DNA of 64,000 nucleotides, taken from Ilumatobacteraceae bacterium. Its GTDB lineage: Bacteria > Actinomycetota > Acidimicrobiia > Acidimicrobiales > Ilumatobacteraceae. Shown here one piece after another: positions 1,228 to 38,877 of this stretch (its first letter is position 1; every line of letters starts with the position of its first letter). The translations under genes and the position numbers were made by a program. A model generated the notes under the pieces. The model did no database searches. It worked only from the letters and a program-made list of their open reading frames with translations, and was not told the origin of the DNA. Location of the stretch: assembly GCA_025463305.1 (NCBI GenBank), contig JAOBWK010000097.1, forward strand, positions 3,519-67,518, given 5' to 3'.

Positions 1228-1228
1228 G

Positions 1229-3471: not shown

Positions 3472-3493
3472 TCGACATGTCGACGCCGGCTCC

Positions 3494-7597: not shown

Positions 7598-7608
7598 TCG
7601 CATCTCAT

Positions 7609-7650
7609 CGCCCCGCGCCCCGCGCACAGCGCCCCGCGCCCCGCGCACAG
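7609..7650. repeat. Perfect 2x21-bp tandem repeat
   Basis: Two identical 21-base units (7609-7629 and 7630-7650), each beginning CGCCCCGCG and ending GCGCACAG, lie directly downstream of the acyl-CoA synthetase stop. They abut the palindromic repeat that starts at 7651. No coding function is apparent. Confidence 0.85.
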
Positions 7651-7718
7651 CGCGCACGCGTGCGCGTGTGGCGCGACCCGGGTCGCGCAGACCGAACACG
7701 CGTGATCGAACTGCGCGG
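7651..7718. repeat. Palindromic dispersed repeat, copy A
   Basis: This 68-base element matches 60532-60599 in the same orientation with five substitutions and no gaps. Its core GCGCGACCCGGGTCGCGC is a perfect 18-base palindrome. It lies between the convergent 3' ends of the acyl-CoA synthetase and PAP2 genes, where a REP-like element or bidirectional terminator would fit. Confidence 0.8.
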
Positions 7719-7737
7719 GCCGCGATCACCTCACGGC

Positions 7738-8622: not shown

Positions 8623-8648
8623 CGACGCAGTCTGGCCCAGGCGGACGG

Positions 8649-9605: not shown

Positions 9606-9668
9606 AGTCTCGCAGTCCTCGGCCCGCGATTCGGGGCCCTGACCAGCATCAATTCCGATCGAAGCGAT

Positions 9669-10451: not shown

Positions 10452-11212
10452 CTCGCCGCCCGACGGATGGGCCGCCCGGTGCGAACGGGGCGGCGGACCC
10501 AGGCGCGATGCGCGGTCTGGGCGATGGTCCACAGCGGGGCGACGACCAGCACCGCACGCACGGCGGGGATGTCGTGCTGGGCGAGGCCGAGCCACAGCAT
10601 CGAGCCGAGCCACGCCGTCATGAACGCCAGCGAGATGCCGCGCCGCTCGCGCACGGAGACGGGGTGGGCGAACTGGACCCTCGAGAGGGTGAGCAGCGAG
10701 AACACGACGCAGATGATGAGGTTGGCCCACGGGTTGTAGCGGAGCAGGAACAGCGAGGGGATGATCATGTTCCACTCGGCGGGGAAGCCGTTGAACCAAC
10801 GCTCCTCGTCCTCCTGGTCGGTTCGGGCCATCCACAGCGCGCTGACGAACAAGATGGTGAAGCCCACCGGGCCGCTGGTGTGCTCGGGCACGATGTCGAA
10901 CTTGTACAGGAACGCCACCGGCACGATGGCGCAGGTGAAGTAGTCGACGATCAGGTCGAGCGAGTTGCCGTTCAGGGTGGGGATGCGTCCGGCGACGTCG
11001 AGCTTGCGCGCGATCGGACCGTCGACGCCGTCGAGGATCAGCGCGACGATGAGCCAGATGATGCCGGCCCGGGCGTGGCCCTCGATGAGCGAGATGAGCC
11101 CGAGGTAGCCGACGATGACGCCGCTCGCGGTGAGGGCATGGACCGCCCAGGCAGCACGGATGTTTCGTCGCGTGTACTCGACGGCGCAGAGGGAGTCGGG
11201 TTCGGCGGTCAC
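10448..11212 (-). CDS. pcs: Phosphatidylcholine synthase (CDP-alcohol phosphatidyltransferase)
   Basis: The CDP-alcohol phosphatidyltransferase motif is present as DGVDGPIARK, followed by a spacer and NGNSLDLIVDY, covering residues about 61-91. The doubled DG-xx-DGP and the L-D-x-I-x-DY ending match bacterial phosphatidylcholine synthase, which condenses CDP-diacylglycerol directly with choline, better than PgsA or PssA. Several transmembrane helices follow. I chose GTG 11212, giving 254 residues; TTG 11245 is an alternative. It is co-transcribed with a downstream alpha/beta hydrolase. Subfamily assignment is from recall of the motif, so another CDP-alcohol transferase remains possible. Confidence 0.75.
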   Translation of the reverse strand: MTAEPDSLCAVEYTRRNIRAAWAVHALTASGVIVGYLGLISLIEGHARAGIIWLIVALILDGVDGPIARKLDVAGRIPTLNGNSLDLIVDYFTCAIVPVAFLYKFDIVPEHTSGPVGFTILFVSALWMARTDQEDEERWFNGFPAEWNMIIPSLFLLRYNPWANLIICVVFSLLTLSRVQFAHPVSVRERRGISLAFMTAWLGSMLWLGLAQHDIPAVRAVLVVAPLWTIAQTAHRAWVRRPVRTGRPIRRAAS

Positions 11213-11290
11213 AGTGGGATGTACCCTACGCTCCGCGAGGACCAAACGTGGACGCGCTGACCTGGGACGGAGCCCAGTCCGCGGCCGCTG

Positions 11291-12984
<1,694 letters not shown>

Positions 12985-12985
<1 letters not shown>

Positions 12986-13926
12986 CACCTCGGAGTCAAC
13001 AGGCGCACGGGTTCTCCCGCGCGCCACGCCACGATGTCCTCCACGATCTCGCGGTAGAAGATGTCGTAGCACTGCGACACGACGTAGCCGGTGTGCGGCG
13101 TCAGCACCGTGTTCGGCAGGGCCCGCAGCGGGTCGGTGACGGGAAGTGGCTCGTGCTCGTACACGTCGAGCCCCGCGCCGGCGATGATGTGGCGCCGCAG
13201 CGCGTCGGCGAGCGCGGGCTGGTCGATCAACGGCCCGCGCGAGGTGTTGACGAGGATCGCCGATGGCTTCATCGCCACCAGCTCGGCCGCGCCGATGATG
13301 TGATGCGTGCGCTCGCTCAGCTGGAGGTGCAGCGACACCACGTCGGAGGTCTCGATCAACTCGGTCTTGCTGACCGCGCGGATGCCGAACCTGTCCGCCT
13401 TCTCCTGGGTGAGGTTCTGGCTCCACGCGACGACGTCCATCCCGAACGCCACGCCGACCTTCGACATCAGCCCGCCGATGTTGCCGAGGCCGATCAGCCC
13501 GAGCCGCTGGCCGGCCAGGCCGGTGCCGAGGCGCGTCTGCCAGCCACCGTTGCGGATCGTGGCGTCGTCGGCGGCGATGTGCCGCCTGACGGCGAGGATC
13601 AGCGCCCACGTCAGCTCCGACGTGGAGGTGACGATGCCCATCGTGCCGCACACCGTGACACCGTGCGCAGCCGCCGCGTCGAGGTCGATGACGGCGTTGC
13701 GGTTGCCCGTCGTGACGAGCAGCTTGAGGTCGGGGAGCCGGTCGAACAGCGAGGCCGGGAAGGGCGTGCGTTCGCGCATCGCCACCACGATCTCCGCGCC
13801 CGCGAGGGCCTCGGCGAGCGCCCCTTCGTCGGCGATGTGCTCGGTGATCGAGACCGGGTCGAGATCGCCCCAATCGGTGTACGAAGCGGCGATGTCCTGA
13901 TAGTCGTCGAGCACTACAACACGCAT
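12985..13926 (-). CDS. D-isomer-specific 2-hydroxyacid dehydrogenase
   Basis: The 313-residue NAD-dependent enzyme has the Rossmann motif GLGNIGGLMSKVG near residue 150. The catalytic triad positions are Arg in NTSRGPLID, Glu in DVYEHEP and His in LTPHTGY. These are family hallmarks for oxidation of D-2-hydroxyacids or reduction of 2-oxoacids. The start is ATG 13926 (MRVVVLDDYQD). Its stop overlaps the start of the cNMP/flavoprotein gene as ATGA, so the two are translationally coupled and both are redox enzymes. The substrate is not resolved; the variant TPHTGY loop also occurs in phosphoglycerate-dehydrogenase-like branches. Confidence 0.88.
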
Positions 13927-13993
13927 GCGGCGAGCGTAGGAGACGCTCTGCTCCCCATCGTCAGCGGCCCGGAGCCCGTGCCAAGATGGCGCG

Positions 13994-14782
13994 ATGACGG
14001 ATACCTTGCCAGCGGCCCAGACCGACCGCAAAGGTGGCCTGAGCGTGTGGGCGCCCAAGATCACACCCCCGATCGGTGTCGACCTCAGCGACGAGCAGAA
14101 GCTCGCCTGCGCCTTCCGCGTCCTCGCCCGCGAGGGCTTCTCCGAGAACATCGCCGGGCACATCACCTGGCAGCGTCCTGGCGAGGACACGATGCTCGTC
14201 AACCCGTGGGGCCTGTGGTGGCGGGAGATCTCCGCGTCCGACATCTGCGAGGTCGATGCCGACGGCAACGTCGTCGCCGGGCAGTGGGACGTCACCCCCG
14301 CGATCCACATCCACACCGAGCTCCACCGCCGTCGCGCCGATGCGCGCGTGGTGATCCACAACCATCCGTACTACGTCACGTTGCTGACGGCGCTCGGCGT
14401 GCTGCCCGACCTCGTCCACCAGACCGGCTCGATGTTCCTCGACGACATCCGGTTCGTGCAGGAGTACACGGGCGAGGTCGACACGAGCGACCTCGGCGCC
14501 GACCTGGCCAACGAGATCGGCGATGCGAAGGTGGTCTTCCTCGGCTCGCACGGGATCATCGTCACCGGCGCCACGATCGAGGAGGCCGTCTACCGCGCGG
14601 CGTCGCTCGACCGGGCGTGCAAGCTCTCCTACGACGTGCTGGTGTCCGGTCGACAGCCGCTCGTCATGGGCCGCGGCCAGATGGTGGGCATGAAGGCGTC
14701 GCTGCTCGAGCGTGGCGCGCCGGTGTACTTCGCCGGCGCGACGCGTGCGTTGCTGCGCGACGAGCCCGACGTCTTGCACTGA
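13994..14782 (+). CDS. Class II aldolase/adducin-family protein
   Basis: The 262-residue protein carries the zinc site of the class II aldolase family: HIHTELH (about 98-104), IHNHP (about 116) and a third histidine in GSHGIIVTG. The Glu in HTELH matches the catalytic acid region. The N-terminal part LACAFRVLAREGFSENIAGH is typical of family members that act on phosphorylated sugars or on hydroxy-acids. It is divergent from the hydroxyacid dehydrogenase, with 67 bases between starts, and begins a rightward run of degradative genes. The aldol substrate is unknown. Confidence 0.87.
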   Translation: MTDTLPAAQTDRKGGLSVWAPKITPPIGVDLSDEQKLACAFRVLAREGFSENIAGHITWQRPGEDTMLVNPWGLWWREISASDICEVDADGNVVAGQWDVTPAIHIHTELHRRRADARVVIHNHPYYVTLLTALGVLPDLVHQTGSMFLDDIRFVQEYTGEVDTSDLGADLANEIGDAKVVFLGSHGIIVTGATIEEAVYRAASLDRACKLSYDVLVSGRQPLVMGRGQMVGMKASLLERGAPVYFAGATRALLRDEPDVLH

Positions 14783-26081: not shown

Positions 26082-26675
26082 ATGCTCCAGACCGTTCCCG
26101 CTCGCCGTGGCAAGGCCGTCCGGCTCGCCGCCGGCGAGGCCATCAAGATCATCAACACCCACGGCACCCAGGTCGTCGACTTCTGGGCGTTCACCACGAA
26201 CATGCAGACCGAGTTCGTCGGGATGGAGCAGAGCCGGGCGACGTGGACGCACCTGTTCCCGCGCGTCGGCGATCCGCTGTACACGAACCACCGCCGGCCG
26301 CTGCTGATCCTCGAGGAGGACACCTCGCCTGGTCGTCACGACACGCTGATGGCGCCGTGCGACAACGATCGCTACGGCCTCCTCGGCTGCACCGATTACC
26401 ACGACAACTGCCGCGACAACATGCACGCCGCGCTGGCCGAGCTCGGTGTGTACGTGCCGTACACGCCCGGCTCGCTGAACGTCTTCATGAACATCCCGTG
26501 GTCCGAGGACGGCGGCCTGGCGTTCGAGCCTGCGCTGAGCAAGCCCGGTGACTACGTGATCTTCCGCGCCGTGCTCGACTGCATCGCGGTGATGTCGGCG
26601 TGCCCACAGGACATCCTCACGATCAACAGCCAGGCGCCGACCGAGGCCCACTTCGAGGTGCTCCCGGCCGCGTGA
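26082..26675 (+). CDS. DUF1989 (urea carboxylase-associated) family protein
   Basis: The 197-residue protein matches the DUF1989 family, often labelled urea-carboxylase-associated. Recognisable segments are PARRGKAVRLAAGEAIKI, NTHGTQVVDFWAF, DTLMAPCDNDRYGLLG, YHDNCRDNMHAAL and the C-terminal SACPQDILTIN. Conserved Cys and His residues suggest a metal or cofactor site. No urea carboxylase or allophanate hydrolase genes are nearby, so the function here is open. The gene is monocistronic, 60 bases after the membrane-hairpin protein and about 65 bases before tRNA-Ser(GCT). Confidence 0.85.
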   Translation: MLQTVPARRGKAVRLAAGEAIKIINTHGTQVVDFWAFTTNMQTEFVGMEQSRATWTHLFPRVGDPLYTNHRRPLLILEEDTSPGRHDTLMAPCDNDRYGLLGCTDYHDNCRDNMHAALAELGVYVPYTPGSLNVFMNIPWSEDGGLAFEPALSKPGDYVIFRAVLDCIAVMSACPQDILTINSQAPTEAHFEVLPAA

Positions 26676-26740: not shown

Positions 26741-26830
26741 GGAGAGCTGCCAGAGCGGCCGAATGGGGCACCCTGCTAAGGTGTTGATGGTTTCGGCCAT
26801 CCGTGGGTTCAAATCCCACGCTCTCCGCCA
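26741..26830 (+). tRNA. tRNA-Ser (anticodon GCT), CCA encoded
   Basis: The acceptor arms GGAGAGC and GCTCTCC pair with discriminator G, followed by encoded CCA at 26828-26830. The anticodon loop CTGCTAA carries GCT. A long variable arm and the T-loop TTCAAAT complete a class II serine tRNA. A strong terminator follows at 26836. Confidence 0.95.
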
Positions 26831-26835
26831 TCGTC

Positions 26836-26878
26836 ACGAACCCCGGGCAGCTGCAGCGGCCCGGGGTTCGTCATTTTT
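26836..26878 (+). terminator. Rho-independent terminator after tRNA-Ser
   Basis: A 13-base-pair GC-rich stem pairs 26836-26848 (ACGAACCCCGGGC) with 26859-26871. A ten-base loop separates the arms, and a CATTTTT tract follows. Confidence 0.9.
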
Positions 26879-26983
26879 CGGCCATCGGTCGCGCGCCGTC
26901 GTGCCTGGTGGGCGCGCTCATGTTGCAATCTCATGACAGGACGTGTAGAACTTTCGTCAAGAAGCCATGCGATTGCTCGTGTG

Positions 26984-27004
26984 GGGGGCGGACGATTCGC
27001 CCCC
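26984..27004 (+). promoter_or_regulatory. Hairpin in the leader of the LysM gene
   Basis: GGGGGCG (26984-26990) and CGCCCCC (26998-27004) form a seven-base-pair stem with a seven-base loop, about 60 bases upstream of the start. The 236-base leader (26831-27066) otherwise shows no recognised riboswitch motif. Confidence 0.45.
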
Positions 27005-27066
27005 TCATCGCCTGCAGCAGGTCCCATCAGTTCGGGCCCGGCCGTGGACGTGAAAGGGAAGAACGA

Positions 27067-28254
27067 ATGTCCGACGACGACTACGGGTTCTGGGACGCCG
27101 ACCGCCAGCGCTCCGAGACCGGCCCGATCCCACGACTGAAACGGCCCGTCGAGCGCGTGCACCACGCAGCGCCCGGTCCGTCCGCGATGGTCAGCCGCCG
27201 CCCCGGTGCAGCGCCCAACCCGGGGCGCCGGCGCATCGCGATGCTCTGCGGTGTCTGCCTGCTGGCACTGCCGGTGGCCGTGATCGCCCGAGGCTCGAAC
27301 AACGACGCGACGATCAGCTCGGCCGAAGCCGCCGCTGCCGCCTCGGTGTCCAGCGGTGTCCCGCTTCCGGCGGTCGCCGATCCCGCCACGACCGTCGCCG
27401 TGCCGGCCGTCGCCGAGACCGGCCCCGTGAGCGTCGAGACCGTTCCCGCGATGGCCGAGGCCACCAGCCCTGCCGTCGAGACCGTGGCCACCGTCGCGGC
27501 GACTGCCGCTGCCGCCGTCGAGGTCCAGTCCGCCGACACCGCCCGACCGGTCGGGATCGCCACCCCGGCGGTCGCCGAGGCCAAGCGCACCTGCGATCAG
27601 GACTACACGGTCCAGCCCGGCGACTACTGGATCTCCATCGCCGACAGCGTCGACGTGAAGCTCTCCGAGCTCCTCACCGAGAACGGCGCCACCGTCAACT
27701 CGCCGCTGTACCCGGGCCGCTCGATCTGCCTGCCCGCCGGTGCGTCGTCCCCCACCACGGACGCGCCCAGCACGACGGCGAAGCCCACCGCGACCACCGT
27801 CAAGCCGAAGACCACGTCGACGACGGTGAAGCCGACCGCCACCACGGTGAAGCCGAAGACGACGTCGACGACGGTGAAGCCGACCGCCACGACGGTGAAG
27901 CCGAAGACGACGACCACGACGGCACCGCCGACAACAGTTGCTCCCTCGACCACGGCTGCCCCGCCGCACAACAACTACACGCGGGCCCAGGTCGAGCAGA
28001 TCATCCGCGACGTGTGGCCCGACGATCTCGAAGACGAAGCCGTCCGCATCGCCACTCGGGAGAGCAACCTGATCCCGACGGTCCGCAACGCGTGCTGCTA
28101 TGGCCTGTTCCAGATCTACTTCACGGCCAACAAGTCGTCACTCGTGTCGTGGGGCATCACCTCAGCCGCGATGCTGTACGACCCGCAGGTCAACGCCTAC
28201 GCCGCGTACGCGATGTACCTGCGTGCCGGCGGCTGGGGTCCCTGGGCGCTCTGA
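27067..28254 (+). CDS. LysM and transglycosylase-like cell-wall protein
   Basis: The 395-residue protein has a cytoplasmic Arg/Pro-rich N-terminus and one membrane anchor near 56-75. An Ala/Val/Thr-rich stretch leads to a LysM domain (about 173-225; YTVQPGDYWISIADS). A Thr/Lys/Pro linker follows, with three near-identical TATTVKPKTT units. The C-terminal domain (about 300-395) has RIATRESNLIP and CCYGLFQIYF, which resemble the catalytic Glu and GLFQI motif of lytic transglycosylases and lysozyme-like muralytic enzymes. ATG 27067 has GAAAGGGAAG upstream. It probably binds and remodels peptidoglycan at the membrane surface. Confidence 0.85.
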   Translation: MSDDDYGFWDADRQRSETGPIPRLKRPVERVHHAAPGPSAMVSRRPGAAPNPGRRRIAMLCGVCLLALPVAVIARGSNNDATISSAEAAAAASVSSGVPLPAVADPATTVAVPAVAETGPVSVETVPAMAEATSPAVETVATVAATAAAAVEVQSADTARPVGIATPAVAEAKRTCDQDYTVQPGDYWISIADSVDVKLSELLTENGATVNSPLYPGRSICLPAGASSPTTDAPSTTAKPTATTVKPKTTSTTVKPTATTVKPKTTSTTVKPTATTVKPKTTTTTAPPTTVAPSTTAAPPHNNYTRAQVEQIIRDVWPDDLEDEAVRIATRESNLIPTVRNACCYGLFQIYFTANKSSLVSWGITSAAMLYDPQVNAYAAYAMYLRAGGWGPWAL

Positions 28255-28886: not shown

Positions 28887-28962
28887 GCGCTCGTAGCTCA
28901 ATGGATAGAGCACTTGACTACGGATCAAGCGGTTAGGGGTTCGAGTCCCTTCGAGCGCGCCA
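28887..28962 (+). tRNA. tRNA-Arg (anticodon ACG), CCA encoded
   Basis: The acceptor arms GCGCTCG and CGAGCGC pair, with discriminator G and encoded CCA. The anticodon loop CTACGGA lies between TTGA and TCAA stem bases, and the T-loop is TTCGAGT. It is the probable integration locus of the 29-36.6 kb element. Confidence 0.95.
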
Positions 28963-28976
28963 ACTGGTTACGACAC

Positions 28977-29003
28977 GAGGATCCGGCCCTGCGTCGGGTC
29001 CTC
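28977..29003 (+). terminator. Terminator-like hairpin after tRNA-Arg, inside the left repeat
   Basis: GAGGATCCG (28977-28985) pairs with CGGGTCCTC (28995-29003) through one T-G wobble, with CGTTTTCG following. The right repeat forms the same hairpin with a C-G pair at the wobble position. Confidence 0.6.
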
Positions 29004-29042
29004 GAGCGTTTTCGCCTCATGTATTGGCGATGTATCAGTTGC
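28979..29042 (+). repeat. Left ~65-bp direct repeat (putative attL)
   Basis: This segment matches 36595-36659 in the same orientation at about 85 percent identity. A 17-base identical core reads TCGGGTCCTCGAGCGTT. It lies 16 bases after the tRNA-Arg CCA and ends just before the ribosome site of the decayed integrase. Confidence 0.75.
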
Positions 29043-29055
29043 GAAGGAGGTCGCC

Positions 29056-29298
29056 ATGTTGTGGAAGCCCTCAGGCAGACCGATGGTGCGCCAGCAACGC
29101 GACAAGTGGGTCGTCCGTATCGACGGAACCGACACCGAATTGGGCAAGACCCGACCCCGCCAGCTCGGGACGTACACGTCGACGCGCGCTGGTCGACACC
29201 GCACGACAGCGGCGACCCCGGTCTTCCACCAGCCGCACTGCCCGATCGGACCGACGTGCGATGGTTTGTGGGCCCCACCCCCAAGCGATTGCCGTCTG
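29056..29298 (+). pseudogene. Decayed tyrosine-type integrase (N-terminal remnant)
   Basis: A strong ribosome site (GAAGGAGGTCGCC) precedes ATG 29056. The first 40 or so codons read GRPMVRQQRDKWVVRIDGTD, then TELGKTRPRQLGTY, close to the N-terminal arm-binding region of actinobacterial phage-type integrases. After that the frame loses homology, while a neighbouring frame offers RRALVDTARQ and another RTDV, as expected after frameshifts. The core-binding and catalytic domains are missing before the LuxR gene begins. The position between tRNA-Arg with a flanking direct repeat and accessory genes fits the integrase end of an old integrated element. The end coordinate is approximate. Confidence 0.6.
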
Positions 29299-29375
29299 CG
29301 TGGCAGCGGCGAATTCCTCGGACATCGAGCGTCGCGTCGGGGCGCGGATCGTCTTCGAACATACGATGAGCTTTG

Positions 29376-31961
29376 ATGCTGCTGGAGCGGGACAGAGAAC
29401 TCGCTGCGCTCGATGAGCTGTTGCGAACCGTGGCGGTGTCGGGCGGGAGGGTAGTTCTGATTCGTGGTGAGGCCGGCATCGGCAAGAGCACCTTGGTCAA
29501 CGCGTTCGTCGCCGCACATGCGAGCGATGCTCGCTTCGCCGTGGGTTTCTCGGACGACATGGTCGCGGCTCGGCCGCTCGGGCCGTTCTGGGACTTTGCC
29601 CGGCAAGAGCCGTCGCTGGCCGCGGGCCTCGACTCGGGGGATCGTTTCGCGATGCTGACGGCGTGCATGGATCTGCTCTCGCGAACGACGCTGCCGACGG
29701 TCTTCGTCATCGAGGACACGCATTGGGCCGACGAGGCCACGCTCGACGCGATCCGGTTCCTCGGTCGACGGATCGGCAGGACGAGCGGGTTGCTGCTCGT
29801 CACGTATCGCGATGGCGAGGTCGACTTCGATCATCCGCTGCGGGCGGTGATCGGCGAGTTGCCGCCGGCGAACCTCGTGCGCATGCACCTCGATCCGCTG
29901 TCGAGCGATGCGGTTGCCTCGATGTTGGCGGGTTCGGCGATCGATGTCGATGACGTGATGTCGTTGACCCGTGGCAACCCGCACTTCGTCAGCGAGGTCG
30001 CCGCTTCGGGCGTGGACCATGTCCCGTCCAGCGTGCAGGACTCGGTGCTGTCCCGGGCCGCCCGCCTGTCACCCGAGGCGAGGGCGCTCCTCGATCTCGC
30101 GTCGGTCAACCTGGGACGGTGCGCGCGGACCTTCCTCGAATCCATCGTTGGGTCGACGGCGGATGCCCTCGCCGAATGCGTGCGTCTTGGTCTGCTGGAG
30201 CTCGACGGTGAGACGGTGAGCTTTCGTCACGAGCTGACGCGCCGTTCGGTCGAGTCGGCGCTGAGCAGCGCCGACCGTCGAGAGCACAACCGGCGGGTGC
30301 TGGCCGCGCTCGTGAGCGGCGACGACATGGCACGTGTGATCCACCACGCGCTCGCCGCCGGGGACCTCGATGCGTTCGTGCAGTACGCCCCGCAGGCAGC
30401 ACTCGCGGCAATGGCGTGTGAGAGCTACCGCGAAGCTGACGCCCACTTTCGGGCTTTGGAGCCGCATCTCGATCGGCTGTCCGTCGTCGACCGCGCTGAT
30501 GTGTGGGACGCGTGGGCTCGCGCCGCGGACTACGTTGCCGACTCCCGCGCGCTGGGTTTGATGGATCGTGCACTCGCGCTGCGCCGGGAGGCGGGAGACG
30601 ACCTCGCGCTGGCGAGAACGTTGACCTTCGCGTCGCTGCTGACGTTCCGCTACGGGCGACCCGATGTCGCCGAACGTCAGTCACTCGAGGCGATCGAGCT
30701 GCTCGAACGTCATCCTCCGGGCGCGGACCTCGCGTCAGCGCTGAGCTCCCGGGCGAGCCTGCTGCTCTATCGCAGCGATGACTCGGACGATACGGTCGCG
30801 CTGGCCGAACGAGCGATGGAGATCGCTACGAATGTCGGCGATGACAGGTCGATGTTCTACGCGCTGATCGCCAAGGGGTCCGTCGAGCACGGCCGCCGTC
30901 AAGCGCGCGGCATGGCGATGGTGGAGCAAGCTCACCGCCTTGCGCAGCGCAACGGGCAACGGTTCGAGGAGGTCTACGCGCTCGTCAGCATGACCGGGCT
31001 CGCCGGAGATCACCGCCAGGTACGACTGGCGCTGGACCTGGCCCGCCGGTCGCTCGCGACTGCAACTCGTTTCGAGCTCCGCGGCATGGAGGCGCACAGC
31101 AGTGCCTTGCTCGCCGAGATCCTCTTGTGGGCCGGGGAATGGGCGGAGGCCGAAGATGCCGCGATGAGCGTGCTCGGCGCGTTCCCCTTCACTGATGCGA
31201 TCTCGTGGAAGGTGCTCGCGCTGTTGCAGTTGCGCCAGGGTCGGCCGGGCGCAGCGACTGCTTTCGAGCGGATGTGGGCGATCGCGGACACCTCCGACGA
31301 GCTGCAGAGCTTCGATCCGGCTGCGGCGACGGCCGAAGACATGTGGCTCACCGGCCGTGTCGATCCGATGGCACTGGAGCGTGTTCGCGAGGCGTTCGAG
31401 CAAGGGGTCCGGGCAGGTCCGCCATGGCCGAGCGGCTCGCTCGCGTTCTGGGTGTGGAAGCTGGGAGAGCTGGGGGCCGTTCCACACGACATGGATGAGC
31501 GGTACCGGCTCATCATCGATGGCGACCCACTGGCGGCGGCAGAGCTGTGGGCGTCCGCGGGCTGCCCCTATGAGCGTGCGATCGCGCTCAGTCACGGGAA
31601 CCTGGCCGCCCAACTCGAAGCGCTCGACGTGCTGGACGCGCTCGGGGCGACCGCGGTGGCCGCCAAGCTGCGAAAGGTCATCCGTGCGAGCGGCCAACGC
31701 GCACCAAGGGGCAAGGGTCGAGCCACTCGGGCCCATTCCGCCGGCCTGACGGCACGACAGGCCGAGGTGCTCGATCTGATCGTCGCCGGCTTGTCGAACG
31801 CGGCGATCGCCGACCGGCTCTTCTTGTCGTTGCGCACCGTCGAGCACCACGTCTCGGCGATCCTGGCGCGGCTCGACGTGACCAGCCGAGAGGAAGCCGT
31901 TCGGCGGACTCTCTCCGCTCAATCGGCCCGCACGCTCCTGGCCCATTCCCCTCAGAAGTAG
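29376..31961 (+). CDS. Large ATP-binding LuxR-family regulator (LAL type)
   Basis: The 861-residue protein has a P-loop ATPase domain at the N-terminus: Walker A GEAGIGKST at 31-39 and Walker B VFVIEDTHWADE near 112. A long helical, TPR-like middle follows, and a C-terminal LuxR helix-turn-helix (LTARQAEVLDLIVAGLSNAA, then IADRLFLSLRTVEHHVSAIL) lies near 790-845. Such LAL regulators sense ligands or proteins and activate adjacent genes. ATG 29376 is preferred over TTG 29373. Immediately downstream lie the DUF4242 gene and the giant secreted protein, its most likely targets. Confidence 0.92.
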   Translation: MLLERDRELAALDELLRTVAVSGGRVVLIRGEAGIGKSTLVNAFVAAHASDARFAVGFSDDMVAARPLGPFWDFARQEPSLAAGLDSGDRFAMLTACMDLLSRTTLPTVFVIEDTHWADEATLDAIRFLGRRIGRTSGLLLVTYRDGEVDFDHPLRAVIGELPPANLVRMHLDPLSSDAVASMLAGSAIDVDDVMSLTRGNPHFVSEVAASGVDHVPSSVQDSVLSRAARLSPEARALLDLASVNLGRCARTFLESIVGSTADALAECVRLGLLELDGETVSFRHELTRRSVESALSSADRREHNRRVLAALVSGDDMARVIHHALAAGDLDAFVQYAPQAALAAMACESYREADAHFRALEPHLDRLSVVDRADVWDAWARAADYVADSRALGLMDRALALRREAGDDLALARTLTFASLLTFRYGRPDVAERQSLEAIELLERHPPGADLASALSSRASLLLYRSDDSDDTVALAERAMEIATNVGDDRSMFYALIAKGSVEHGRRQARGMAMVEQAHRLAQRNGQRFEEVYALVSMTGLAGDHRQVRLALDLARRSLATATRFELRGMEAHSSALLAEILLWAGEWAEAEDAAMSVLGAFPFTDAISWKVLALLQLRQGRPGAATAFERMWAIADTSDELQSFDPAAATAEDMWLTGRVDPMALERVREAFEQGVRAGPPWPSGSLAFWVWKLGELGAVPHDMDERYRLIIDGDPLAAAELWASAGCPYERAIALSHGNLAAQLEALDVLDALGATAVAAKLRKVIRASGQRAPRGKGRATRAHSAGLTARQAEVLDLIVAGLSNAAIADRLFLSLRTVEHHVSAILARLDVTSREEAVRRTLSAQSARTLLAHSPQK

Positions 31962-32058
31962 GGGTCTGCGCACCCATTTTTGGGGGCGGTCCTCCGATGA
32001 CCGCATCCGGCTTGGTTCGTACGTTGGAACGACACCAACCAAGTCGGAGGAAATGGCA
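31962..32058 (+). promoter_or_regulatory. Intergenic region with likely promoter for DUF4242 gene
   Basis: This 97-base gap contains GGCTTGGTTCGTACGTTGGA, with inverted TTGG/CCAA copies further on (ACACCAACCAAG), and then GGAGG at 32046-32050. A target site for the LuxR regulator is plausible but not demonstrated. Confidence 0.35.
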
Positions 32059-32310
32059 ATGGCACTCTTCATGGACGTCCACAACATCGCGGGTGGCGTC
32101 TCGGTCGATGACGTGATCGGGGCACACAAGAAGGATCTCGAGACCCAAGGCAAGTACGGCGTGAACTACTTGCGCTTCTGGGTCGATGAGTCGGCTGGGA
32201 AGATCTTCTGCCTCGTCGAGGCCGACAGCGCTGCGGACGCTCACGCCGTCCACCGTGAGGCGCACGGGCTGGTCGCCGACGAGATCTTCCCGGTCAGCGA
32301 ACACAGCTGA
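32059..32310 (+). CDS. DUF4242 (SCO4226-like, nickel-binding type) small protein
   Basis: The 83-residue protein starts best at ATG 32059 (MALFMDVHNIAGG), eight bases from GGAGG; ATG 32053 is too close to the ribosome site. It matches DUF4242 proteins such as Streptomyces SCO4226, a ferredoxin-like-fold nickel-binding protein. Matching segments are YGVNYLRFWVDESAGKIFCL and AVHREAHGLVADEI, including the conserved His-x-x-x-His pair and a Cys. It lies between the LuxR regulator and the large secreted protein. Its role there is unknown; metal or small-ligand binding is a reasonable expectation. Confidence 0.85.
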   Translation: MALFMDVHNIAGGVSVDDVIGAHKKDLETQGKYGVNYLRFWVDESAGKIFCLVEADSAADAHAVHREAHGLVADEIFPVSEHS

Positions 32311-32341
32311 TCGAGCGGCGGCGAGGGTGTCGAGGTCGACC

Positions 32342-35300
32342 ATGCATCAGCGTTCGAAGCTGGCCAGGATCGCTGCCGCGGCTGCGGTGGCGGTCGCGTC
32401 GCTCGTGACTTCAGTGCTCGCGCCCGGATCGCCGACCACGGCGTTCGCGGCAATGCAGACGGACCTCGTCGGACCGCCCGGGAGTGCACAGTTCGCACAG
32501 AACGTGCTGGTGCTGTCGAACGGCAACTTCGTGGTCACCGACCCCGGGTTCAGCAGCGGGTCCACCAACGGCGTGGGCGCCGTGTACCTCTACAGCGGCG
32601 CCACGCATGAGGTCATCAGCACACTCACGGGCAGTGAGGCCGGTGACCACGTGGGTTCGGGCTCGCTCGTCGCGGTGGGCACGAGCAACTTCGTCGTCTG
32701 GAGCCCGGACTTCCACAACGGCGGGACCACGGCTGTCGGTGCGGTGACCTGGGTGAGCGGTTCGACCGGGCTGAACAATGCGGTCACCGTGACGAACAGC
32801 CTGATCGGCGCCGGCTCGGTGAGCGTCACCACGTTGTCGAACCACAACTATGTGGTCTCCGACCCGGCGTGGAGCGTCGGGGCGTCCAAGGACATCGGGG
32901 CGGTCACGTGGGGCGACGGCAACAGCGGTGTGAGCGGCGTCGTCGGCACAGGGACCAGCCTCGTCGGATCCGCCGCAGGTGATTCCGTCGGCGTTCGCGT
33001 GCTGGCTTTGACGAACGGCAACTACGTTGTCGAGAGCCCGTCCTGGGCCAGCGGAGGCATCGCGGACGCCGGCGCGGTGACCTGGGAGCCCGGATCGTCG
33101 AGTGGCAGCCGGACCATCGGGCCCGTGAGCGCCACGAACAGCTTCGTCGGTACCACCGCTGGAGATTTCATCGGGAGCGACGGGGTCGCTCTGTCGAACG
33201 GCGACTACGTGATCGACAGTCCAGGTTGGAACCGGGCGGGTGCCGCCCATGCGGGCGCTGTCACATGGCGGGACGGCACGATTCAGGCCAGCACGTACCG
33301 GTCCCCCGTGCAATCGCACCCACTCGTGATCGACAACCAGGTGACGACCGCCAACAGCCTGGTCGGCACGTCGGCCAGCGAGTTGGTCGGCCTCGAGTCG
33401 GTGCATCCACTGGCGAACGGGAACTACGTCGTGTCGAGCCATCACTTCGGTGGACACCTCGGTGCGGTGACCCTCCGCCAGGGTGCGTATCCAGCCGGCC
33501 ACGCGGGTGCCGATCTCACCGCGGCGAACAGCCTGACGGGCTCGACACAAGGCGACGTGATCGGCGGTGGCGCGGTCGTCGCCCTGTCCGACGGGAACTT
33601 CGTCGTCGGAAGCCCGTCCTGGCACGCACCGGTCGGCAGTGTCGGCGCCGTGACCTGGGTCAGCGGCACGACGGGCGCTCCCGGGGCGACGGTCACTGCC
33701 GGCAACAGCTTGGTCGGCTCGACGGTCGACGACCTCGTGGGCGAGATCCTCGACTCGCGCCACCCCAATGTCGTCGCACTGTCCGGTGGCCGATACGCCG
33801 TGGCCGCACCGAGCTGGGACGACGGCGCGAAGCAGGACGTCGGGGCGGTGGTGCTCGGGGCCGCCGGTGGCGCCACGACCGGCACGATCGCTGCCACGAC
33901 CGCACTCGTCGGCGACCAAGCAGGCGACGCCGTCGGCGACCTGGGCCTCTCCGTGTTGACCAATGGCGACGCCGTCGTCAGCAGTGCGCACTGGCACGGG
34001 AGCGCTGGCGCGGCGACGTGGATCGACGTGGCGAGCGGTCGAACGGTCGGGGCGATCTCTCCCTCGAACAGCCTCGTTGGATCGACCCCGGGCAGCGCCG
34101 TCGCCGGCGGCGTGACCGTGCTGGCCAACGGCAACTACGTCGTCGACAGCCCGCACTGGTCGACTCCATCCACGTCAGAGGTCGGAGCTTCGACGTGGGG
34201 CAACGGCGCGTCGGGAACGATCGGTGTGGTGAGCGCGACGAACAGCCTCGTCGGGTCCGCGGCTGACGACCAGGTCGGTTGGGCCACGGATGCCCTGCCG
34301 GACGGCTCGTACGTCGTGGGGAGCAGGTCGGCGAGCGGTAACGTCGCCCACGCTGGTGCGGTGACGCTCGCCGATGTGGTTGGTTCGCACGGGACCCTCT
34401 TGGTGCAGCGCACCGTCTACGGCACAACGGACCTCGACGACTTCCAAGTGATGCCTGCCTTCGCCACGGACGGGTCCGTCGTGATCGACCGACCGCGGGA
34501 CGAGATGGTGACGCTGCTGCGACCGGACACGACGCCACCGTCGTTCACGTCCGCACACACGAACGTCGCCGTCGCCGCTGCACCGGGCTCGACGTCGGCG
34601 GTCGTCAACTACACGAACCCGATTGGTGTCGACGACGTCGGTACGCCGACCGTCGCCTGCGCCCCATCCAGCGGCTCGACGTTCTCGATCGGGACCACGA
34701 CGGTGACGTGCACGGCGACGAACTCCGAGCCCCTGACCGCAACGACGTCCTTCACGGTGACCGTGACGCAAGCCGCGTCGCCGACACCTGCGCCGACATC
34801 ACCGACCGGGTCGCCCTCGACGACCACACCGACATCTGGCTCCGAAGCCCCGGTCACCGACTATGTGGCAGTGCCACCCGCACGACTTGCCGATACACGG
34901 CCCGGACAGACAACGGTCGACGGGATGTTCGCCGGCGTCGGGCAGCTGGCAGCCGGCTCGACGCTGCAGCTGTCCGTTGCTGGGCGTGGCGGCGTCTCGC
35001 CGGGAGCGGTGGCCGCGACGTTGAACGTCACGGTGACCGAACCGATGGCGCCTGGGTTCCTCACTGTGTACCCGTGTGGCACGCCGCAGCCCACGGCGTC
35101 GAACGTCAACTACGAGGCAGGTGAGACGATCCCGAACGCGGTGCTCACCAAGATCGGAGCGAACGGTCAGGTGTGCCTGTTCGTCCAAAGCGCACTGCAG
35201 CTCGTGGTCGACGTCGACGGCTGGTACCCGCCCTCGACGTCCTACCGTTCGCTCGAGCCGGCCCGCCTGCTCGACACCCGCCCCGGATCAACGACCATCG

Positions 35301-35995
35301 ACGGGTTGGGCGCCGGCGGCGGAGCAGTTGCCGCCGGCTCGGTCACCGTGCTTCCCGTGGCCGGCCGCGCCGGTGTCGCCGCCGACGCGAGCAGTGTCGT
35401 GTTGAACGCGACCGTGACCGAACCGACCGCTGGCGGCTATGCGACCGTGTACCCCTGCGGCGACTCACCGCCGACTGCGTCGAACCTGAACTACACCACC
35501 GGGCTGACGATCCCGAACCTCGTCGTCGCCGAGGTCGGTGCCAACGGGGACGTGTGCATCTTCACGCAGGCCGCGACCCATCTGGTCATCGACGTGGACG
35601 GGTTCTTCCCGGCGGACTCGACGTACATCCCCCTGCCGCCGGCACGGCTGTTGGACACTCGCGAGGGAGGCTCGACGATCGACGGCCAACAGCTCGGTGC
35701 GGGCATCCGCGCCGCAGGAATGGTCACGGACGTGCACGTGGTCGGCCGCGGCGGAGTCGAGGCCAACGCCTCCACGGCTGTCCTCACCATCACGGTCACC
35801 GACTCGACCGGAAGCGGCTACGTGACGGTCTACCCATGCGGAACCGAGCCACCCTTGGCCTCGAACCTGAACTACTCCGCGGGTCAGACGATCCCCAACA
35901 CGGTCATCACCGAGATCGGTGCCGGCGGCGATGTTTGCATCTTCAACAGTCAACCCACCCAACTCCTGGCCGACGTCGCCGGCTCCTTCCACTGA
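32342..35995 (+). CDS. Giant secreted repeat protein with three C-terminal ARLLDTR modules
   Basis: The 1,217-residue protein has a signal peptide (cleavage near AFA, residue 36). About eleven imperfect repeats of roughly 60 residues (about 40-740) follow, pairing NSLVGS-like strands with NGNYVV-S-P-W and GAVTW, an FG-GAP or beta-propeller-like pattern. Next come a HYR/Ig-like domain (about 745-815), a Thr/Pro/Ser linker and three modules of about 126 residues at 840, 967 and 1093. Each module contains ARL-DTR, VAGRGGV-like, YPCG, SN-NY and a CIF/CLF segment with two conserved Cys. Similar modules recur at the C-termini of secreted acidimicrobial proteins. An adhesin or surface role is inferred. 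Confidence 0.85.
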   Translation: MHQRSKLARIAAAAAVAVASLVTSVLAPGSPTTAFAAMQTDLVGPPGSAQFAQNVLVLSNGNFVVTDPGFSSGSTNGVGAVYLYSGATHEVISTLTGSEAGDHVGSGSLVAVGTSNFVVWSPDFHNGGTTAVGAVTWVSGSTGLNNAVTVTNSLIGAGSVSVTTLSNHNYVVSDPAWSVGASKDIGAVTWGDGNSGVSGVVGTGTSLVGSAAGDSVGVRVLALTNGNYVVESPSWASGGIADAGAVTWEPGSSSGSRTIGPVSATNSFVGTTAGDFIGSDGVALSNGDYVIDSPGWNRAGAAHAGAVTWRDGTIQASTYRSPVQSHPLVIDNQVTTANSLVGTSASELVGLESVHPLANGNYVVSSHHFGGHLGAVTLRQGAYPAGHAGADLTAANSLTGSTQGDVIGGGAVVALSDGNFVVGSPSWHAPVGSVGAVTWVSGTTGAPGATVTAGNSLVGSTVDDLVGEILDSRHPNVVALSGGRYAVAAPSWDDGAKQDVGAVVLGAAGGATTGTIAATTALVGDQAGDAVGDLGLSVLTNGDAVVSSAHWHGSAGAATWIDVASGRTVGAISPSNSLVGSTPGSAVAGGVTVLANGNYVVDSPHWSTPSTSEVGASTWGNGASGTIGVVSATNSLVGSAADDQVGWATDALPDGSYVVGSRSASGNVAHAGAVTLADVVGSHGTLLVQRTVYGTTDLDDFQVMPAFATDGSVVIDRPRDEMVTLLRPDTTPPSFTSAHTNVAVAAAPGSTSAVVNYTNPIGVDDVGTPTVACAPSSGSTFSIGTTTVTCTATNSEPLTATTSFTVTVTQAASPTPAPTSPTGSPSTTTPTSGSEAPVTDYVAVPPARLADTRPGQTTVDGMFAGVGQLAAGSTLQLSVAGRGGVSPGAVAATLNVTVTEPMAPGFLTVYPCGTPQPTASNVNYEAGETIPNAVLTKIGANGQVCLFVQSALQLVVDVDGWYPPSTSYRSLEPARLLDTRPGSTTIDGLGAGGGAVAAGSVTVLPVAGRAGVAADASSVVLNATVTEPTAGGYATVYPCGDSPPTASNLNYTTGLTIPNLVVAEVGANGDVCIFTQAATHLVIDVDGFFPADSTYIPLPPARLLDTREGGSTIDGQQLGAGIRAAGMVTDVHVVGRGGVEANASTAVLTITVTDSTGSGYVTVYPCGTEPPLASNLNYSAGQTIPNTVITEIGAGGDVCIFNSQPTQLLADVAGSFH

Positions 35996-36007
35996 CATCG
36001 GTGCAGC

Positions 36008-36571
36008 GTGGATCCCGATCGCTCGACCGACAACGCATCGCCCGCTCCGTGGGCGGCCCCGGCGGGGAGCGTCACCGTCGACGTTTCGGTCGACGTCGAC
36101 GACGTGCGCGCGCTCGCCCGCCATCTCCTGCGCGGGCCGCGCCAGCGCCATCTACGTCGCATGCGCGCCGCATGTGTCGTCGCGCTCGTCTCCGTGTGGT
36201 GCGCGATCGTCACGACGACCGCTCCATCCGCGTCGTCGCCGATCCTCCTGGTCGCCGCAGCCGCTGCCGGGTTGATGCTGCTGATCGTGCGCAGCGCGGC
36301 GAAGCAGCAACGACAGCTCCGTCGAGACGACTACGCGGCAACCATGACCGCCGACTCGACGGGACTGACAATCGCGCGCCCACACTCGTTCACCCGCATC
36401 GAGTGGGCAGGACTCGAAGGACTCGACGTCACTCCTGTGCGCATCCTGCTCCGAACACTGTCGACCACCGGCTACGTGATCCCGTCCACATGCTTTCGGT
36501 CCGCCGAAGATCTCAGGCTGTTCGTGACCCTGGCCGGCGGCATCGACGCTGACAACGCCGGGAGGGCGTAG
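36008..36571 (+). CDS. YcxB-like membrane protein
   Basis: The 187-residue protein has a polar N-terminus and two close membrane helices near residues 57-72 and 76-94. The C-terminal domain reads TADSTGLTIARPHSFTRIEW, then GYVIPSTCFRSAEDLRLFV. This matches the YcxB-like C-terminal domain, in which a 'triew' strand and 'viPk..f' strand form a PH-like fold. I used GTG 36008. It is the last gene before the right direct repeat, 12 bases after the giant secreted protein, so it belongs to the element. Its function is unknown. Confidence 0.75.
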   Translation: MDPDRSTDNASPAPWAAPAGSVTVDVSVDVDDVRALARHLLRGPRQRHLRRMRAACVVALVSVWCAIVTTTAPSASSPILLVAAAAAGLMLLIVRSAAKQQRQLRRDDYAATMTADSTGLTIARPHSFTRIEWAGLEGLDVTPVRILLRTLSTTGYVIPSTCFRSAEDLRLFVTLAGGIDADNAGRA

Positions 36572-36594
36572 ACATTCGCCGGGTGAGCCGGAAA

Positions 36595-36659
36595 GGACCC
36601 GGCCGGGCGGTCGGGTCCTCGAGCGTTCTCGCCCCATGCATCGGCGATGTCTCGGTTGC
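36595..36659 (+). repeat. Right ~65-bp direct repeat (putative attR)
   Basis: This copy aligns with 28979-29042 over its whole length with about ten differences, mostly T-to-C changes, and one indel. It starts with the hairpin GGACCCG/CGGGTCC and carries the same 17-base core. No tRNA gene adjoins it, which marks it as the distal end of the inserted segment. Confidence 0.75.
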
Positions 36660-36680
36660 CACGTCGATCGGCGTCGTGCG

Positions 36681-37454
36681 TCACCCGACCGCGGCGGCCT
36701 TCGGCTGCGCCATCGCCCACTCGGCGGCGCTCGAGGCGAGGTGACCGATCGCGCCGCCTGCCCACATCTGGGCGGCGGCGTCACGGTCATTCGGATCCGT
36801 TCCGATGACGACGTCCGGGGCCATGTACGGAGCGAGCGGTTCGCCCACCGCTGGCGCTCGGCGCTGCGCGCCCGTGTGGACGTCGGTGCCGAACCACAGG
36901 TCCCACGCCACGTTCGCGGGACACGTCAGCTGTCGGGCGATGCGGACCGTCCAACCCTGCGCCGAGTCGATGATCTCGGGTCGGTCGAGTCCGAACTCGT
37001 GGACGAGCGCTTCGTGACGAGCGATGCCACGATCGGCCGCGGGCGGTGGCTCGTCACCGAGCACGGCACGCAGGCCGGCCAAGCACAGTTCCCATCCGGT
37101 GGCGAAGCTCGGCGCGCCGGTCCGGTCGTCGAACGAGTGGCTCAACGTGAAGGTCGTCCCGTCGCGATCCGCAGCGAGCTCGAACATCATCGTGTCCGCT
37201 CCCCACGTGAAGGTGATCATCCGCGGCGGTTCGATCTCGCGGACCGTGCCGAAGGCGGCGCCTGTTCCGTCGAAGGCGGAGAAGCGCATCGATCCGCCTG
37301 GACGCAGGTCGATCTCGACGGGGCTCGGGAACCACTGGTCGAGGTGCTCGGGTGTCGTGACCGCGCGCCACACCTTCTCGATCGGGTGCGGGTAGTGCCG
37401 CTGGACGTGGACGATGGGTCGCCCGTCGGTGGTGAAGAACGGATCAGTGGACAT
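36681..37454 (-). CDS. SRPBCC/AHSA1-family protein
   Basis: The 257-residue protein is an Aha1-like START-fold protein: HVQRHYPHPIEKVWRAVTTP at the N-terminus, then LDQWFPSPVEIDLRPGGSMRF and ITFTWGADTMMFELAADRDGT, then a family-typical GWELCLAGLRAVL. The extra C-terminal half repeats a shorter SRPBCC-like element with RIARQLTCPANVAWDLWFGT. Such genes usually follow an ArsR regulator in an operon, and a truncated ArsR gene overlaps its start by 11 bases. The function is likely ligand binding, but unproven. Confidence 0.85.
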   Translation of the reverse strand: MSTDPFFTTDGRPIVHVQRHYPHPIEKVWRAVTTPEHLDQWFPSPVEIDLRPGGSMRFSAFDGTGAAFGTVREIEPPRMITFTWGADTMMFELAADRDGTTFTLSHSFDDRTGAPSFATGWELCLAGLRAVLGDEPPPAADRGIARHEALVHEFGLDRPEIIDSAQGWTVRIARQLTCPANVAWDLWFGTDVHTGAQRRAPAVGEPLAPYMAPDVVIGTDPNDRDAAAQMWAGGAIGHLASSAAEWAMAQPKAAAVG

Positions 37455-37749
37455 CGTGCGCTCCTCGCGGATGGGTGGGATCGCGATCCTGTGGGTCGTC
37501 GTCGGGCATCGTGTCGAGGTGGTCGCCGAGGCGGTCGAGCGTGGCCTCCCACATCCAGCGATACGGCGTCAGCCAGTTGTCGACCTCGACGAATGGTTCG
37601 GCTCGCACGCTGTACCAACGCCTCGGCCCATCGACGCTGACCGCGACGAAGCCGGCCTCGCGCAGCACCGCCAGGTGCTTGGAGACCCATCGAGTGCTGC
37701 GCTCGGCGCCCTCGGCAATGCCGTCCTCGTCGGTCACCGGACCACCCAC
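37444..37749 (-). pseudogene. ArsR-family regulator, 5'-truncated
   Basis: The frame encodes RWVSKHLAVLREAGFVAV, DGPRRWYSVRAEPFVEVDNW and LTPYRWMWEATLDRLGDHLD. These are the recognition helix, wing and C-terminal part of ArsR repressors that pair with AHSA1 genes. The first helices (usual 'ADPTRRAIL..L') are missing. The sequence before RWVSKHL reads as the complement of a sortase gene. The open frame starts at 37749, but homology begins near 37690. The truncated protein would lack a complete winged helix and is probably non-functional. Confidence 0.65.
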
Positions 37750-38070
37750 TTCGCACCCTTCTTCAGCCTCGACCGGGTGGCCCCGGGCGACGAGATCGAC
37801 GTCACCACCACGCTGGGCGAGGCGTTCGTCTACACCGTGACCGATTCCGTGACCACCGACCCGAACGACACCGAGGCGATCGCATCAGATCCGAGCAGAG
37901 CGACGCTCAGCCTTGTGACGTGTACGCCGATCGGCACCAGCTCGCATCGTCTCGTCGTCCATGCCGCGCTCGACAGTGCACGGTCGTCACAGCCCGAGGA
38001 TTCGAGCGAGGTCGCCTCACCGGAGCCGTCCCAGGTGTCGGTGTGTGGCATCAGCGCACGAACACCGTGA
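37711..38070 (+). pseudogene. Class E-like sortase, C-terminal fragment
   Basis: From about 37711 the plus strand encodes LGNAVLVGHRTTHFAPFFSL, then DRVAPGDEIDV and LVTCTPIGTSSHRLVVHAAL. These are the catalytic His (GHRTTH), Cys (LVTC) and Arg (HRLVV) regions of sortases that anchor surface proteins. The N-terminal signal/membrane segment and first strands are absent, with no start codon or ribosome site at the break. All three catalytic residues survive, but without the anchor the fragment is probably inactive. The break abuts the truncated ArsR gene on the other strand. Confidence 0.65.
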
Positions 38071-38178
38071 CGCTTCTCGTCGTACGTCGGTGAAGCGGTG
38101 TCGCCATCCCTACCCTTGATCGGACGTGCCGCCGCTGTCAGGTGGCCGTGGTGCGAGACATCGGAGAGGGAGCGAGCC

Positions 38179-38877
38179 GTGGGCGAACGGGTGTCGAGTT
38201 CACAGGGACGTCGAAGCGATGAGGACGCGCGGGCGACTCGGGCCCGCCTGCTGGAGCTCGCCGGCGATCTGTTCGCTGAGCGCGGATATCTGCAGACCTC
38301 GATCCGCGATCTCGGACGGCACGCCGGGGTGACGAGCGGCGCCATCTACGGACATTTCCGCAACAAGGCCGACCTGTTGGCCGAGACGATCAACGAGGGC
38401 ACGGCTGCGCTCCTCGAGGCGGACACGATCGGCCTGGAGGCCGAGAGCGACCACGTCGAGACCCTGACCCGGCAGGCCGTTCGCGCACCGAAGCGTCGTC
38501 GGTTGCGCGCGTTGATCGTGCAGGGCGCCGCGGCGGCGCAGACCGACGGGGAGACTCGGTCCCGGTTGCGTGACGAGCAACGTGCCCACATCGACGTGTG
38601 GGTCGCTGCGCTCGAGCGCGATCGCAGCCGCCTCGGAATCGATCCGTCGGTCGATCTCGAGGCTGCCGTGCTCTACATCTGGGCGGCTGAGCTCGGCTTG
38701 GGTGTGTTGGAGAGCATGGGCATCGAGCCGAGGACCAATAGGGCGTGGACGGACATCCAGAACCGGTTGGCCCGGAGCTGGCAACTGGCGCCGGATGTGA
38801 AGCGCGTCCGGCCGCCTCGTCGTCGGCGGTCGGCCACGTCGGTCACTCAGGTCACCACGTCTTCTGGCGATCGGTGA
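38179..38877 (+). CDS. TetR-family regulator
   Basis: I chose GTG 38179, preceded by GGAGAGGGAG, giving 232 residues. The helix-turn-helix reads LLELAGDLFAERGYLQTSIR, DLGRHAGVTSGAIYGHFRNK, then ADLLAETI. The C-terminal domain is helical with an Arg-rich tail (RPPRRRRS). Upstream the frame is open to GTG 38098, but no ribosome site supports it. Its 3' end overlaps that of the convergent SnoaL-like gene by 26 bases. Target genes cannot be named; the neighbouring SnoaL and oxygenase-like genes are candidates. Confidence 0.85.
   Translation: MGERVSSSQGRRSDEDARATRARLLELAGDLFAERGYLQTSIRDLGRHAGVTSGAIYGHFRNKADLLAETINEGTAALLEADTIGLEAESDHVETLTRQAVRAPKRRRLRALIVQGAAAAQTDGETRSRLRDEQRAHIDVWVAALERDRSRLGIDPSVDLEAAVLYIWAAELGLGVLESMGIEPRTNRAWTDIQNRLARSWQLAPDVKRVRPPRRRRSATSVTQVTTSSGDR

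Follow-up and report, generated by a model that had tools for sequence, protein, structure and literature searches.

A probable compound integration scar of tyrosine-integrase mobilizable elements behind tRNA-Arg(ACG) in an Ilumatobacteraceae bacterium

We analysed a 64,000-nt stretch from an uncultured Ilumatobacteraceae bacterium (contig JAOBWK010000097.1, positions 3,519-67,518 of the forward strand; hereafter the window, in whose own numbering its positions are given), in which a pair of direct repeats and an integrase remnant lie behind a tRNA-Arg(ACG) gene. The tRNA gene (28887..28962, forward strand; ARAGORN, Rfam), the integration target, is apparently intact, and its 3' half (28916..28960, forward) corresponds to the attachment core, with an exact 45-bp match at the presumed right attachment site (attR) of a related genome, G001 (G001:C306:20277-20321). 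It is followed on the same strand by the damaged left end of an element, an integrase leader (28963..29055) containing a hairpin (28977-29003), ATGTATT (29019-29025) and ATGTATC (29030-29036), and then by the first 46 codons of an integrase gene (29056..29193), tblastn homology stopping at 29193. The right copy of the repeat, also on the forward strand (36594..36659), has a hairpin (36594-36619) and the degenerate motifs ATGCATC (36636-36642) and ATGTCTC (36647-36653). A previous, sequence-only reading had taken the two copies as attachment sites of one degenerate element, with a core in the tRNA terminator, a right end at 36659 and the genes in between as cargo.

The repeat pair (28978-29053 and 36594-36670) was 80.5% identical over 77 columns and scored 66.8 bits, whereas none of 20 shuffles of the window by a third-order Markov model exceeded 44.0 bits; its 50-bp core (28993-29042 and 36610-36659) was 88% identical and included an 18-nt identical run. 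The repeats and hairpins first described are thus real. No further copy was detected by BLAST within the 64 kb. A strong hairpin opens each copy, equal folding being reached in 0/200 shuffles for the left and 7/200 for the right, surroundings included.

Relatives were collected by scanning contigs with the protein at 26082-26672, which we take to be of DUF1989 type; 80 of 243 loci were kept and five of these (L001, L002, L003, L004 and L011) were aligned to the window, the syntenic relatives being about 73-79% identical to it in the main DNA blocks. The tRNA-Arg was visible in three of the five, namely L001 (an Ilumatobacteraceae metagenome-assembled genome, G001), L002 (G002) and L011 (G003). 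At L001 and L002 the tRNA is followed by the leader and then by an integrase gene, which is full length at L001, with PF00589 over the catalytic part, and open up to the contig end at L002. The 46-amino-acid remnant was 80% (L001) and 76% (L002) identical by tblastn to the N-termini of these same-tRNA integrases, confirming the integrase remnant proposed beside the left repeat, and the left leader was 84-86% identical to both of theirs; a PF00589-type integrase beside a tRNA is therefore represented by the remnant in the window and by its PF00589 homologue at the same tRNA in L001. The ATGTATC-like pair starts at +56 and +67 after the tRNA in the window and at +80 to +82 and +91 to +93 in 8/9 tRNA-Arg leaders of relatives (the ninth, G129a at tRNA-Arg(TCG), has a single site at +80), so that about 24 bp appear to have been lost between tRNA and pair in the window. 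As far as sequence comparison goes, the repeat unit fills the interval from core to integrase gene and consists of a terminator-like hairpin, a putative terminator, and paired ATGTATC sites, which are putative integrase arm sites.

In a survey of 221 genomes of the family (up to eight candidates scored per genome for the L001 integrase, and up to four for the searches with the LAL and DUF5650 proteins described below and with the right repeat), the L001 integrase type was present at E <=1e-40 in 16, the copies of G003 and G136 being interrupted. An empty site, which the sequence-only reading had named as support for insertion, was found at G002:C165, where the same left flank and tRNA-Arg occur without an integrase and the right flank matches that beyond the G001 core. 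This contig was 94.4% identical to the occupied G001:C647 (971 columns) and 86.7% to the occupied G002:C199, and therefore probably comes from a G001-like strain binned with G002. At G005:C116, a degenerate leader and the truncated start of an integrase gene come after tRNA-Arg. The window tRNA was matched in 149/221 genomes, and the flanks of the best 30 loci were examined: five carried the exact ATGTATC pair, all with an integrase of L001 type, one (L194, in G005) had an integrase remnant without the exact motif, and the remaining 24 had neither an integrase or remnant of this type nor the exact motif (L187 offering only 41 nt past the tRNA). With occupied and empty relatives both present, the comparison indicates that an element once inserted at the window tRNA-Arg, and the decayed, once-mobile element of the earlier reading stands to this extent.

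Integrases of more than one kind use the site: behind the tRNA-Arg of L011 (G003; 3590-8023) lies another tyrosine integrase, which shares about 29-31% identity with those of L001 and L002. This locus also contains an additional ~3.7 kb between DoxX and the tRNA. On another contig of G003 (L109, 4865-6093) the tRNA 3' half alone precedes an interrupted integrase of L001 type, and the two G003 sites are possibly a tandem array split by assembly.

The attachment core was sought in 15 stretches with an L001-type integrase, as a repeat of the 250 bp before the integrase. A second core was found in five, in every case beginning inside the tRNA 3' half: exact 44-bp cores at tRNA-Arg in G213 and G214 (14.1 kb and 12.1 kb apart, respectively), cores of 52 bp at tRNA-Ala and 45 bp at tRNA-Pro in G114, and a core of 58 columns (96.6%) at tRNA-Pro in G199. 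The second core of G001, an exact 45-bp copy, is on a different contig, C306, where the flank after it is that seen at the empty site. The attachment core of this integrase family is thus the 44-45-bp tRNA 3' half in the elements with both ends seen (G213, G214 and G001). Direct repeats of the tRNA 3' end flank G213, G214 and, across two contigs, G001; in the window, no BLAST match to a second tRNA 3' half was found elsewhere, and the best local alignment equalled the median of 200 shuffles (12) in 36001-38170 and reached only 14 of 47 in 29061-64000. With only one core copy found, the window locus is therefore filed as an element scar, not as an intact element. Immediately after the tRNA, the window and the left attachment sites (attL) of G213 and G214 read CAACTG, and attR of G001, G213 and G214 and the empty site read TGA.

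These cores bear on the idea that the two repeats form the exact limits of one element whose attachment sites lie in the tRNA terminator, an idea that would account for repeats that are real and unusual, for the integrase remnant adjoining one of them and for DNA that is absent from the empty site. However, the tRNA 3' half delimits the G213, G214 and presumed G001 elements, the extra DNA does not stop at the right repeat but goes on to about 38.1 kb, and inside the attR of G213 and G214 BLAST gave a copy of the ATGTATC pair and no leader hairpin (the stretch was not folded). An attachment core in the terminator was rejected on the cores of G213, G214 and G001 together with the failure to find a second core in the window, and the explanation as a whole is highly improbable.

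The right repeat has no tRNA core nearby. The 46 nt past its hairpin scored 29 against the window's left leader, 27 against that of G002 and 26 against that of G001, and 19-22 against six other leaders (shuffle maxima 11-14 overall, 11-12 for the nearest leaders); the G129a leader gave 9 (chance), natural tRNA flanks gave 11 (G001) and 8 (C165), at chance level, and the stretches right of attR gave 10 (G213) and 9 (G214). Since the right copy matches leaders, and not natural flanks, past the hairpin, it is best read as a relic of a second integrase leader, probably derived from a second element. The repeat as the element's own right end is disfavoured, the ATGTATC pair lying left of the core in G213, in G214 and on the attR contig of G001.

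Alternatively, after a single insertion the right repeat could be the tRNA's own old terminator, displaced, with the attR core lost. The repeat does sit on the side of the TetR gene described below, where a displaced terminator is expected, and its hairpin scores 25 and 27 of 41 against the natural terminators of G001 and G002:C165, respectively. Moreover, when aligned to window 36501-38170, the flank of G001 that lies between core and TetR starts to match at exactly 36594, mainly via the hairpin; its score of 49 exceeds the 95th percentile of 100 shuffles (44) but not their maximum (51), and this counts against an origin as a leader. This explanation nevertheless has to meet the 46 nt past the hairpin, which resemble leaders (26-29) and not natural flanks (8-11), and the exact motif, which occurs in none of the 24 loci among the best 30 that lack this integrase family and its remnant; we regard it as unlikely, although it would be rescued in part by a chimera joining old terminator to leader, such as lies right of the G213 attR.

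That both copies are instead ordinary terminators alike by chance is favoured by the occurrence of the hairpin alone behind integrase-free tRNA-Arg genes, at G002:C165, in the G001 attR flank and, weakly, in G114. The window pair lies above all 20 shuffles, however, and the 77-bp right copy was matched over >60 nt in 1/221 genomes, at an integrase leader, the next-best listed match (50 nt, G214:C155) having neither tRNA nor integrase in the 19.5 kb around it. The right repeat as a chance or common terminator was thus rejected, as it exceeds the shuffles and is rare among the family genomes; we give this explanation next to no credence, and the repeats are not the widespread ordinary terminators for which the earlier reading had allowed.

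To the right, the first gene common to the window and the G001 chromosome encodes a TetR regulator (38098..38877, forward), which in G001 begins 0.55 kb past the core and shares 89% amino-acid identity with window 38098-38874. MeaB and the next gene in G001 correspond to window 62.0-64.0 kb (MeaB 79% at the amino-acid level, its block 85% at the DNA level); G002:C165 lacks the TetR gene yet reaches MeaB (82.5% DNA), and therefore empty site and window are connected by way of G001 and MeaB. Between the right repeat and TetR, the window carries genes for an AHSA1-family protein and an ArsR-like protein (36681..37749, reverse; Pfam and homology comparison), for which no counterpart was found between tRNA-Arg and TetR in G001, nor at G002:C165. 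Compared with these relatives, the extra DNA extends from the tRNA to TetR near 38.1 kb, AHSA1 and ArsR included, so the right end first placed at 36659 does not hold. In a shallow search, with two candidates scored per genome, the right flank (861 bp of DNA) was matched in 23/221 genomes, nearly always by short pieces; the only long match, G129:C18 (AHSA1 and ArsR), has no tRNA within the 20 kb examined.

Taken together, these data make it probable that window ~28963-38097 is a decayed, and probably compound, integration scar of tyrosine-integrase mobilizable elements using the tRNA-Arg(ACG) 3' half. Integration would supply a new tRNA 3' half and set the leader, with its hairpin, paired ATGTATC sites and integrase gene, directly behind it; two related elements would have entered this tRNA one after the other before decaying, the right repeat being the second leader. 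Decay would have cut the integrase to 46 codons and removed about 24 bp from the left end as well as the right-hand core, which was not found. The site, the integrase family, the existence of empty and occupied relatives, the core sequence of the relatives and the likeness of both repeats to leaders are directly supported; from these we infer two insertions, rather than duplication of one leader, and an order of losses, and the genes between the repeats may have arrived with an element. With the integrase cut, and with neither a right-hand core nor any relic of a relaxase or excisionase found, the scar should not excise by itself.

Several observations weigh against this compound scar. A second core was not found in 10/15 of the integrase stretches examined, many of which end with the contig, and in G115 none was found in 19 kb. 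The attL and attR of G001 lie on separate contigs, as do both G003 sites, and the CAAC/TGA contrast is not general, the attL of G207, G135 and G136 reading TG. The right repeat retains no recognisable integrase codons; right of the G213 attR, an ATGTATC stretch followed by an integrase-like start resembles the window's scar in kind and not in sequence, its score of 10 being that of chance. Moreover, the order of events rests indirectly on relatives at the identity given above, and, as no trace of other element genes was found, a single element plus unrelated gene gain could also have produced the locus.

Related elements resemble integrative and mobilizable elements (IMEs), as the sections of a 2017 review drawn on here describe them (PMC5704250), in having one tyrosine integrase beside a tRNA, direct repeats of the tRNA end and a relaxase. 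According to the same sections, known canonical IMEs lack MobF, unlike the elements here: the relaxase of G001 is of MobF type, scoring above the NF041492 cut-off, and that of G214 has a TrwC domain. The IME hallmark of an own relaxase without conjugation apparatus was not found in the window, where, also unlike IMEs as described there, only the leader and integrase start remain; relaxases occur in the G001 and G214 elements. A decayed element at a site still used by relatives recalls the accretion and cis-mobilizable elements (CIMEs) of that review, the G213 scar likewise adjoining an element. A CIME, on its description there, keeps attL and attR; the window has a cut integrase and no transfer-gene trace was found in it, but no right-hand core was found either, and therefore the scar is not cis-mobilizable as read. 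A decayed accretion scar is thus an already known kind of structure, and the present case illustrates how a repeat lying next to both a tRNA and an integrase may be mistaken for an attachment site.

Like the actinomycete integrative and conjugative elements (AICEs) in the parts of PMC3218068 used here, which include a tRNA-Arg case from Frankia that has three att repeats, as well as tandem elements, these elements are actinobacterial and use a tyrosine integrase at tRNA 3' ends; unlike AICEs as characterised there, they have a TrwC/MobF relaxase. A scan of element proteins of L001, L011 and L170, covering a subset of the open reading frames (ORFs), gave no FtsK-like Tra or replication initiator. 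Similarly, the integrase promoter region of KplE1 intS overlaps attL beside a tRNA gene, argW (PMC2951348); unlike the window, KplE1 is an E. coli prophage, and the relevant part of that paper mentions no target-linked hairpin. Literature searches on Ilumatobacter or actinobacterial integrative elements and on integrase, tRNA and terminator yielded, among the papers listed, no title on this site.

We compared the hairpins of the leaders of 16 integrase loci and the window. The best hairpin ranged from -24.5 to -36.5 kcal/mol in ten tRNA-Arg leaders (the window and the partial G003 site counted) and from -13.7 to -20.1 kcal/mol in seven tRNA-Pro/Ala leaders, in which the first site lies at +45 to +48. 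Against the G001 attR flank and C165, element hairpins of G001 and G002 scored 25-38 and those of G213 and G214 scored 8-11; against the G213 and G214 attR flanks the values were 11-14 and 17-23, respectively. Element hairpins thus seem, to a degree, to resemble the terminators of their own host lineage. There are exceptions: the G135 and G136 elements reached 21-25 against G001 attR and C165, though outside that lineage group, G207 remained undecided (10-19), G129a was at chance (8-12), and single loci among 22 other tRNA-Arg flanks gave 19-20. On the basis of this lineage resemblance we tentatively propose, as a possibility to which we give rather less than even weight, that tRNA-Arg elements carry their own ~34-bp terminator module, lying between core and ATGTATC pair and lacking from the tRNA-Pro and tRNA-Ala members seen, that each integration swaps the tRNA terminator, and that decayed elements leave terminator and leader as the working 3' end of the tRNA, the window repeats being two such terminators from successive elements. 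If so, tRNA terminators would be captured by, and inherited from, mobile elements; the MobF-relaxase mobilizable elements and the empty site in Ilumatobacteraceae make such an exchange between element and tRNA gene testable.

Four forward-strand genes lie between the repeats, encoding a LAL-type LuxR regulator of 862 amino acids (29373..31961; Pfam AAA_16 and GerE), an SCO4226-like protein of 85 amino acids (32053..32310; Pfam PF14026, NCBIfam NF033706 below cut-off), a repeat protein of 1217 amino acids (32342..35995) with DUF5650 (11 matched stretches), an HYR domain and C-terminal repeats, which by the look of its N-terminus may be secreted, and a small protein (36008..36571) with weak YcxB similarity. 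Of the earlier gene calls, the LuxR regulator, the DUF4242 (that is, SCO4226-like) protein and the repeat protein were upheld; YcxB fell below the Pfam cut-off (14.3 of 23.3 bits). These genes have 62-69% G+C and are not clearly distinct by base composition. Their designation as cargo found no support: elements with matching integrases exist, none carries these genes where compared, and the element ORFs of G001 (incomplete), G213, G214, G207, G135 and G005 match the window by tblastn only at the leader and integrase start. Searched by tblastn for the relaxases of the relatives, the window showed none, and no excisionase relic was found there.

Mobilizable elements with a TrwC/MobF relaxase-helicase were located at L170 (G214, 906-12888) and L106 (G001, 3960-9667). 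The G214 element carries the integrase and a TrwC relaxase-helicase, besides which no ORF >500 amino acids lies inside it, and, by eye, a helix-turn-helix protein and ABC-transporter-like genes; in the G001 element, a helix-turn-helix protein has excisionase similarity below threshold. Viral contigs scanned with the L001 integrase, which detects close relatives only, contained no relative.

In the family survey, LAL homologues (E 1e-60) and homologues of residues 1-743 of the DUF5650 protein (E 1e-30) each occurred in 7/221 genomes; no paper on DUF5650 was found in the literature search. The LAL, SCO4226-like and DUF5650 module of window 29373-35995 recurs at an unrelated locus, L237 (G003:C28, 921-6640), on a 6.6-kb contig in which no tRNA or integrase was found, its middle gene being recognised by eye and unreported by tblastn at 1e-6; this recurrence suggests a regulated surface-protein unit. 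At L241 (G116, 2616-14073), several stretches with the repeats of the window's DUF5650 protein lie side by side in one genome. Upstream of the tRNA, Thr/Lys/Pro-coding tandem repeats occur at window 27745-27932, within the coding region of a protein without NCBIfam match (26803-28254).

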